From the NCBI GenBank assembly GCA_016929195.1, contig JAFGJG010000004.1:1-56465 (forward strand): a stretch of 56,465 nucleotides of DNA. Reading direction: 5' to 3'. The notes beneath the pieces are model-generated. The model was not told the DNA's origin and did no database searches. It saw nothing but the letters and a program-made list of their open reading frames with translations. Positions 526 to 40,254 of the stretch are shown one piece after another. The first letter of the stretch is position 1, and each line of letters begins with the position of its first letter. The translations under genes were made by a program, and so were the position numbers. This DNA comes from Thermoleophilaceae bacterium. Lineage in GTDB: Bacteria; Actinomycetota; Thermoleophilia; Solirubrobacterales; Thermoleophilaceae.

Positions 526-574
526 GAAGTGTCCTGCCCTGTGGTTGCTATGCAACCGAAAGTCAGGACGCTTG
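526..574. repeat. 49-bp two-tier palindrome, copy 1 (solitary)
   Basis: Plus-strand layout: outer arm GAAGTGTCCTG (526-536), spacer CCCTGT, inner arm GGTTGC (543-548), loop TAT, inner arm GCAACC (552-557), spacer GAAAGT, outer arm CAGGACGCTTG (564-574; two mismatches to the perfect complement). The same 49-bp design and orientation recur at 38378-38426 and 39302-39350. This copy stands alone between the ABC permease stop (590) and the lipoprotein promoter. It can fold as a long hairpin and could also act as a transcription boundary, but it has no T-tract. Confidence 0.9.
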
Positions 575-38377: not shown

Positions 38378-38426
38378 GAAGTGTCCTGCCCTGTGGTTGC
38401 AGGGCAACCAGAAGTCAGGACACTTC
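38378..38426. repeat. 49-bp two-tier palindrome, copy 2
   Basis: Plus-strand layout: GAAGTGTCCTG (38378-38388), CCCTGT, GGTTGC (38395-38400), loop AGG, GCAACC (38404-38409), AGAAGT, CAGGACACTTC (38416-38426). The outer 11-base arms are perfect complements. It contains the end of the DUF559 gene (TGA, 38415-38417 read on the minus strand) and sits between two convergent genes, where it could also stop transcription. Confidence 0.92.
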
Positions 38427-39326
38427 CGGGCGACGGCGCACATCGAGGAGCCCGCGGAGCTCGCGCAGCATGGGCTCCGGGTGTTCGAGCACGTCGCCGT
38501 AGGTGTAGCGGCGAAAGTCGTCGCCGCGCGCATATGCCTCCCGTTCGCGACGACGATCCTGCTCCCAGGCGTGGCGCGAGCGGTGGAAGCGGTAGCCGTC
38601 GAGCTCGACCGTCAATCGAATGTCCGGCCAGCGAGCGTCGACGCGGCGGCCGCCCGCGGGCCGGTTGGTCCGCGGGAGCGGCAGTCCGACCTCGTCCAGC
38701 AGCGCGAGGAAGACGCGTTCCAGTTGGCTGAGGGTGATTCGAGACTCTCCGTGGAGCATGGCCCGCAGCCGGGCCACGCCCGGGTCGGTCGGACGCCGGG
38801 CGAGGATCGCCTCCACATCCCGCGGGGTGACGTCGTGGCGCACCTCGGCCTCGTGGCAGGCGCGTGCGAGCCGACCCTCGGGGAGCCGTGCGGCCACGCT
38901 TACGAGCGTACGCGGCACGGAGATGACGGGTATGCCGAGCCTCACGACCGCGTCGCCCATCTCTCCCCGCCTGGCTCTGCCTGCGACGACTCCCGGGACC
39001 TTGCGCTCCGTCCGGGCGAGCACCTCCGGAGCCGGCTCCCGCCCCGTGATCAGAGCGTGCAGGTGCGCGGCCGCCAGGCCGGCGAGCAGCGCTCCCTCAC
39101 CGCAGGCTCGGACCGCCGCCATGTAACGGGCCTCCCGGCTCGGTGCCACATGTCCGACCCGGAAGACACCGCGGTGCACCCGGATCAGCGCACCGCGCCG
39201 CAGCCGCTGCTTGATCTCCTCGGCGCTCAGTCCCGCCGCGACGAGCTCGCCGCGCGTGACGACACCGTGTGAGCCGTGCGCCAGCCGTGCGAGTTCCCGT
39301 TCGACCGTCCTGCCGTGTGGTTGCAC
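38415..39326 (-). CDS. AbiEi-like / DUF559 (Vsr-like nuclease fold) protein
   Basis: A 303-residue protein. The N-terminal winged-helix part (5-50: HGVVTRGELVAAGLS, then VHRGVFRVGH) resembles AbiEi-type antitoxin N-domains, and the C-terminal part (about 200-295) is DUF559. It carries the PD-(D/E)xK-like pattern VDARWPDIRLTVELDGYRFH, then DRRREREAYARGDDFRRYTY. Proteins of this build occur in many copies in actinobacteria; no activity is established. Two GTG starts (39335 and 39326) both lie in the right palindrome; 39326 is used. The last residues Glu-Val-Ser and the TGA are encoded by the left palindrome arm. No Shine-Dalgarno or -10 is evident. Confidence 0.85.
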   Translation of the reverse strand: MQPHGRTVERELARLAHGSHGVVTRGELVAAGLSAEEIKQRLRRGALIRVHRGVFRVGHVAPSREARYMAAVRACGEGALLAGLAAAHLHALITGREPAPEVLARTERKVPGVVAGRARRGEMGDAVVRLGIPVISVPRTLVSVAARLPEGRLARACHEAEVRHDVTPRDVEAILARRPTDPGVARLRAMLHGESRITLSQLERVFLALLDEVGLPLPRTNRPAGGRRVDARWPDIRLTVELDGYRFHRSRHAWEQDRRREREAYARGDDFRRYTYGDVLEHPEPMLRELRGLLDVRRRPEVS

Positions 39327-39350
39327 TGCAACCACAAGTCAGGACACTTC
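39302..39350. repeat. 49-bp two-tier palindrome, copy 3
   Basis: Plus-strand layout: degenerate outer arm CGACCGTCCTG (39302-39312; last six bases match), CCGTGT, GGTTGC (39319-39324), loop ACT, GCAACC (39328-39333), ACAAGT, CAGGACACTTC (39340-39350). With the flanking GT/AC the inner stem is 8 bp. On the minus strand it contains both GTG candidates of the DUF559 gene; the degenerate arm encodes the first residues of that protein. Confidence 0.88.
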
Positions 39351-39363
39351 GAAAGTTGGCCCC

Positions 39364-40254
39364 CTAGGCGGCCACGGCGCTGCGGGCGCTGCGGGCGTGC
39401 TCGGCGATCGCGTCGATGATGCGCGGCCAGAACGCGCGCGGGAGGTCGTGGCCCATGCCCTCGATGCGCAGGAGGCGCGCGCCGGGGATCGCCTTGGCGG
39501 TGGCGCGGCCGCCCGACGGGCGCACCAGCTTGTCCGCCGAGCCGTGCACCACGAGCGTCGGCGCCTTGATCCGGCGCAGGTCGCGCACGCGGTTGCCGGA
39601 GGCGAGGATCGCGCCGAGCTGGCGGATCGTCGACGCCGGGTCGCGGGCGCGGTCGTAGGAGAGCGATGCCACCTGGCGCAGGTCCTCGACGTCCGCCCGC
39701 CCGGGCGACCCGATGCGCGTGAAGATCTTCTCGACGTGGTCGAGGAAGGCCTCCTTCTCCTGCGGCGCGGGCGTGAGCAGCGGCCGGTAGAGCGAGAGCG
39801 CCGGCTGGCCGCTGAAGCGGCTGCCCGTGTTCGACATGATCGACGTGAGCGTCCGGACCGAGTCCGGGTGGTGGGCGGCCATCGTCTGGGCGATCATCCC
39901 GCCCATCGACGCACCGACCACGTGCGCGGGGGCCAGGTCGAGCTCGCGGAGCAGGCCCGTCGCGTCGTCGGCCATGTCGGCCAGCCGGTACTGGTTCGGG
40001 TGGAAGCGGCGGCTCAGCAGCTGCCGGAGCGTCGGAGTGGGGCCCGGGAAGTGGGTCGAGCGGCCCGCGTCGCGGTTGTCGAAGCGCACGACGTGGAACC
40101 CGCGCCCGGCGAGCTCGCCGCAGAAGTCCTCGTGCCACCCGACCATCTGCATGCCGAGGCCCATGACGAGCAGGAGCGGCGGGTCGGACTCGTTCCCAAA
40201 GGTCTCGTAGCAGAGGGTCACGCCCCGGCCGACGTCTGCGAACCGCTCGTCCAT
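39364..40254 (-). CDS. Alpha/beta hydrolase
   Basis: A 296-residue hydrolase with a complete triad: oxyanion loop LLLVMGLGMQMVGWH, nucleophile elbow GASMGG (Ser near 116), acid in VHGSADKLV, and His in EGMGHDLPRAF. RFDNRDAGRS near 60 marks the group often annotated as esterase or aclacinomycin methylesterase-like. The substrate is not known. TACGAT stands six bases before the ATG. Its stop is 14 bases from palindrome copy 3. Confidence 0.92.
   Translation of the reverse strand: MDERFADVGRGVTLCYETFGNESDPPLLLVMGLGMQMVGWHEDFCGELAGRGFHVVRFDNRDAGRSTHFPGPTPTLRQLLSRRFHPNQYRLADMADDATGLLRELDLAPAHVVGASMGGMIAQTMAAHHPDSVRTLTSIMSNTGSRFSGQPALSLYRPLLTPAPQEKEAFLDHVEKIFTRIGSPGRADVEDLRQVASLSYDRARDPASTIRQLGAILASGNRVRDLRRIKAPTLVVHGSADKLVRPSGGRATAKAIPGARLLRIEGMGHDLPRAFWPRIIDAIAEHARSARSAVAA

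Follow-up and report, generated by a model that had tools for sequence, protein, structure and literature searches.

A DUF559 gene and a family of imperfect palindromes scattered over the host genome occur together in a group of actinobacteria, an arrangement whose sole precedent involves an unrelated enzyme. A REP-like palindrome family with a cognate DUF559 protein is the best explanation of our results, and we consider it rather probable. The simplest reading is a partnership resembling that of REP and RAYT with an unrelated enzyme, in which the protein would recognize the palindrome and disperse it. REP palindromes are common bacterial repeats, and for the families without a RAYT we know of no source. 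If a dedicated partner of another fold is real, the alliance of REP and enzyme has more than one evolutionary origin, and the DUF559 proteins, which are multi-copy per genome here, would gain a testable role.

The window, that is, the whole 56,465-nucleotide stretch of DNA that was analyzed, comes from a Thermoleophilaceae bacterium and carries a DUF559 gene on its minus strand (38415–39335). As the earlier note had observed, two 49-bp imperfect palindromes of identical design and the same orientation bracket this gene. The 5' copy (39302–39350, minus strand) scored 62 bits with R1, a covariance model trained on copies from this genome only, and has the likely GTG start codon (39324–39326) in its apical loop; the listed reading frame opens at 39335, while the family alignment favors a start at 39326. 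The 3' copy, oriented as the 5' one (38378–38426, minus strand; 70 bits), holds the stop codon (38415–38417). Thus, gene and palindromes overlap and do not merely adjoin. The copies are 924 bp apart and 91% alike across 44 nt, and single-stranded DNA folding of each gave a z of about −5 to −6. Regarding their design, the 11-nt outer arm and 3-nt loop described earlier stand, while the asymmetric spacer measures 5 nt instead of 6 and the inner arm 7 nt instead of 6; the foot of one outer arm is degraded in the copy at 39302 (CGACC versus GAAGT). The third copy without a gene, reported to lie 38 kb away, is also there (526–574, minus strand; 72.6 bits), in the spacer of tandem genes, with three mismatches to a pattern that had no matches in shuffled sequences.

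The palindrome recurs across the genome of origin (G000; 3.46 Mb in 193 contigs, the window being contig 55), in which we found 38 copies compared to none for a reversed control. Mean column identity among the copies is 90%, and the outer arm GTCCTG..CAGGAC and the inner arm GGTTGC..GCAACC are invariant in all 38. Because the spacers between the arms are asymmetric (ACTTC versus CAGGG), the palindrome has a direction. Simple gene calling placed 23 copies in convergent, 11 in tandem, and 1 in divergent spacers, as compared to 25, 49, and 32 for the background at the same loci (35 copies classed; three near contig ends were left unclassed), and at least one gene lies upstream in 34 of the 35, the copy thus being 3' of a gene. 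The usual anatomy and distribution of REPs (PMC3733652) are as these copies show. Several copies are paired in the same orientation at a spacing of 116 to 142 nt. The pairs at L029, L037, L038, L046, L050, and L052 enclose a conserved inverted repeat (GACGCAC..GTTACG / CGTTAC..TGTGCGC) and form a composite unit. The idea that the paired units are deletion derivatives of the gene found no support (p 0.06 and 0.09), and an Rfam search returned chance microRNA matches only.

The window protein matched the AbiEi_4 profile above the cut-off, the REase family MTES_1575 below it, and the PADLOC AbiEi model at 3.9e-21. An AlphaFold2 model built on an eight-row alignment (mean pLDDT 76, pTM 0.51) predicts an AbiEi antitoxin fold for residues 9 to 195 (6y8q, Z 7.8; Rv2827c, 1zel, Z 6.0) and an EDxHD/Vsr-like nuclease fold for residues 199 to 301 (I-Bth0305I, 3r3p, Z 9.5; Vsr, 1cw0, Z 8.5), which agrees with the winged-helix N-domain and Vsr-like nuclease-fold C-domain noticed before. 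Residues E205, D232, E243, D245, H250, and D259 are invariant in eight members and are candidate catalytic residues, with the EDxHD equivalence judged by eye. A sequence search of solved structures gave a single chance match only. The dN/dS values of 0.15 to 0.44 show purifying selection.

G000 carries 10 DUF559-type genes, and the palindrome lies near only one of them, that of the window. The expectation of the earlier note that the palindrome would be enriched beside DUF559 genes genome-wide therefore fails for DUF559 as a whole; judged by it and from G000 alone, the pairing would look like coincidence. We searched R1 in 121 genomes and obtained matches in 20, most of them in G000, G058, G092, G014, G018, G116, and G001. 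The genomes richest in matches hold DUF559 proteins that are 55 to 63% identical to that of the window, or remnants, as compared to about 33 to 46% for other paralogs. The window-type proteins form one clade (support 100/99), and with a subfamily profile we found intact genes in 19 of 232 genomes of the order and remnants also in G001 and G018, giving a total of 21.

Nearly all subfamily members examined begin within a hairpin of this kind, whose apical loop contains the start codon, and several also end at one. The 5' hairpin is present in almost all genes and broken or poor in a few members (G014c, L122/G009). A 3' hairpin was found in about 8 to 9 of 28, so the two-ended cassette proposed at the outset suits only some members; most subfamily genes have no clear hairpin at the 3' end. 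At the ends of the remaining DUF559 genes in these genomes, the palindrome is matched weakly at best. The order of elements at 29 subfamily starts is GGGGGGCGAA, a short stretch, the left outer arm, spacer, left inner arm, and a loop with ATG or GTG, followed by the mirrored right half, whose outer arm encodes the first residues Q-x-R-T-V-E. Almost every subfamily gene has the GGGGGGCGAA motif ahead of its 5' hairpin, and the version of this motif in the window is GGGGGCCAA (39356–39364, minus strand).

Within G000, covariation is invisible because the copies are too alike. Across the 29 gene starts, the sequences diverge widely and the pairing is kept, with two-sided changes at 18 of 20 pairs. 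We counted 124 compensatory cells as compared to 44.5 ± 5.1 in shuffled alignments, and the covariation score was 0.555 versus 0.202 ± 0.017 for shuffled and up to 0.16 for slid controls. RNAalifold, unaided, recovered the same hairpin. In the two main arms, few of the kept pairs are G-U, suggesting that a DNA palindrome or DNA hairpin fits at least as well as an RNA hairpin.

The subfamily and the palindromes also occur in the same genomes. At least three R1 matches were present in 11 of the 20 subfamily genomes in the R1 set and in none of the 101 others. Using R2, a structure-led model trained partly on the same subfamily-bearing genomes, we found at least four matches in 20 of the 21 genomes with the gene or a remnant and in 7 of the 211 others (Fisher 5e-22). 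After four matches per gene copy were subtracted, the counts were 13 of 21 and 7 of 211 (2e-11); both p-values are too small because related genomes are not independent. A different DUF559 gene lies beside hairpins in four of the seven exceptions (G083, G084, G060, and G211), and the exceptions also include G125, which is 54% complete, and G030, from the same genus as G018. G047, G051, G016, and G009 have the gene and few or no matches beyond the gene's own. Dispersed palindrome families are lineage-specific, and the 5' hairpin of the gene was closest to the dispersed copies of the same genome in six of seven cases; the observed total was reached by 1 of 5040 permutations, the true one. The palindrome foot of G058, G092, and G116 differs (ACC, GTC, or ACT before GTCCTG), alike in the gene and in the dispersed copies. 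The start within the palindrome, the enrichment, and the sequence tracking thus support the REP/RAYT-like association with an unrelated enzyme suggested by the earlier note, for one subfamily in 21 genomes.

We propose that the DUF559 protein, with its AbiEi-type winged helix and EDxHD/Vsr-fold nuclease, recognizes the imperfect palindrome around its own start codon, which probably doubles as an autoregulatory site. In gene-keeping lineages, the palindrome would have multiplied, single or in pairs, to as many as tens of copies, most of them 3' of genes. The likeliest agent of this spread would be the nuclease, binding and cutting the palindrome or its hairpin or cruciform form. That the DUF559 protein itself spreads the palindrome is the least certain step, and the main rival is operator binding only: the start palindrome would be an operator or a translation-control hairpin, the protein would at most bind it, and solo copies would come from slippage, recombination, or another enzyme. 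We judge this account to be the less likely one, although it has a precedent in AbiEi and Rv2827c, which autoregulate by binding inverted repeats at their own promoters (PMC7319586), and although many DUF559 paralogs carry a palindrome at the start, for most of which no dispersed copies are known. It is at odds with the dispersed copies, which follow, in each genome, both the presence of the gene and the sequence of its hairpin, and which lie 3' of genes and not in promoters; moreover, the profile of the Y1 HUH transposase (RAYT, PF01797) had no match in G000. Very improbable, in our estimate, is an account in which the dispersed palindromes have nothing to do with DUF559 and act as ordinary transcription terminators or as hairpins at mRNA ends, the gene simply lying between two of them. 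The convergent genes around 23 of 35 classed copies would suit terminators, but the arms are invariant across 38 copies, the families are lineage-specific, and the palindromes are associated with one particular DUF559 subfamily, whose start codon lies within the hairpin.

The gene and its hairpins might instead be an ordinary small transposon unit, from which the solo palindromes would derive as non-autonomous forms or scars. G014 would fit, as it has six subfamily gene copies (L224–L229) whose start hairpins differ, whose neighbors are unrelated, and which share no more than the gene and the preceding 80 nt or so (two of the six have an internal stop relative to a single-protein query). Insertions immediately behind tRNA-Ser genes, which represent three anticodons (L230, L232, L233, L234, L240, and L121) and terminal copies at both gene ends in the window, G058, G092, and G060 point the same way. 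However, the terminal copies are direct in the window and G058 and inverted in G060, the 3' copy is often absent, the paired units are not significantly like the gene ends, and no target-site duplication was defined. Furthermore, orthologous gene copies are stable: because those of G007/G020 and of G016/G023 are orthologous and syntenic, the gene moves rarely. We therefore regard a transposon unit as improbable and keep to a palindrome family with a cognate protein. A second, truncated 5' end in G058 likewise speaks for mobility. The comparison of filled and empty orthologous sites envisaged in the earlier note gave a result for solo copies only, with just one clean empty site, in a relative: a palindrome pair in G018 is missing from the orthologous 66-nt spacer of G003. 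Another G018 cluster is missing in three relatives, but the missing segment includes 2 kb of further DNA and is close to a gap in the scaffold, and for the window locus no close ortholog was found among the relatives (hydrolase at most 63% identical). Searches of viral contigs and of plasmids yielded no relative.

As far as sequence can tell, the system resembles a REP/RAYT pair in its working. Like the REP/RAYT (TnpA_REP) systems, or "REPtrons" (PMC8266576, PMC3733652), it has imperfect palindromes of 40 to 50 nt in tens of copies, 3' of genes and single or paired, and a single partner gene that these palindromes flank, with palindrome and partner co-varying between lineages. In contrast to the Y1 HUH transposase of those systems, the partner here is an AbiEi/EDxHD-type protein, the gene begins inside the palindrome, and the copies have AAG/AAC..GTCCTG feet and neither the GTAG tag of REP/RAYT nor a CGTC tag. 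Because enzyme and tag motif differ, it is not a member of the REP/RAYT family. The CGTC-tagged REPs without a known transposase (PMC3733652) likewise lack a RAYT partner, whereas here a candidate partner gene is identified. The N-terminal 190 residues share the fold and the PADLOC models of AbiEi antitoxins (6y8q; Rv2827c, 1zel; PMC7319586), and the palindrome at the start of the gene parallels the inverted repeats that AbiEi binds at its own promoter. Unlike these antitoxins, the protein has an additional, predicted C-terminal nuclease domain, and the palindrome is dispersed genome-wide. By their translations, the neighbors of the window gene read as a reductase and an alpha/beta hydrolase, which suggests that no AbiEii (DUF1814) toxin gene adjoins it. 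The modeled C-terminal fold, with its conserved acidic and His residues, is similar to Vsr and to the EDxHD homing endonuclease I-Bth0305I, whose contacts with its target extend over nearly 60 bp (PMC3943268). In contrast to I-Bth0305I, the gene is not in an intron, and the target would be the palindrome around its own start. Among the papers searched, which were those readable without a subscription, we found none that ties DUF559 to REPs and no such system.

Outside the subfamily, many DUF559 paralogs also carry a start palindrome of their own, whose apex often holds the start codon (e.g., L100, L293, L300, L302, and L307). An inverted-repeat score of at least 12 was found at 28 of 54 paralog starts, 23 of 37 subfamily starts, and 17 of 181 control gene starts, some of the controls being themselves copies of the element. 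Minimum free energy at gene starts failed to set the subfamily apart from paralogs because many paralogs have palindromes too. We give about even chances to a second, enzymatically unrelated REP-propagating class, in which DUF559 (AbiEi-EDxHD) proteins recognize and copy their own start palindromes and which has more than one origin within DUF559 (the GTCCTG type of about 20 genomes, the GCGTGCGG type of G211, and the 59-bp arrays of G084). L302 and L307, two DUF559 paralogs of G211, have a GCGTGCGG..CCGCACGC start hairpin in common, which recurs at three further sites (L308–L310), possibly a second, separate gene-palindrome pairing with a quite different palindrome. A DUF559 paralog of G084 is flanked on either side by a tandem array of 59-bp hairpin units, the two arrays being oppositely oriented (L278, 622–954 and 2468–3100), with a higher-order period of 118 bp and matches of up to 99%. 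Last, a DUF559 paralog of G060 has a near-perfect palindrome of 51 bp at the start and, immediately past the stop, an inverted 90% copy of it (L293, 1450–1498 and 2405–2453).
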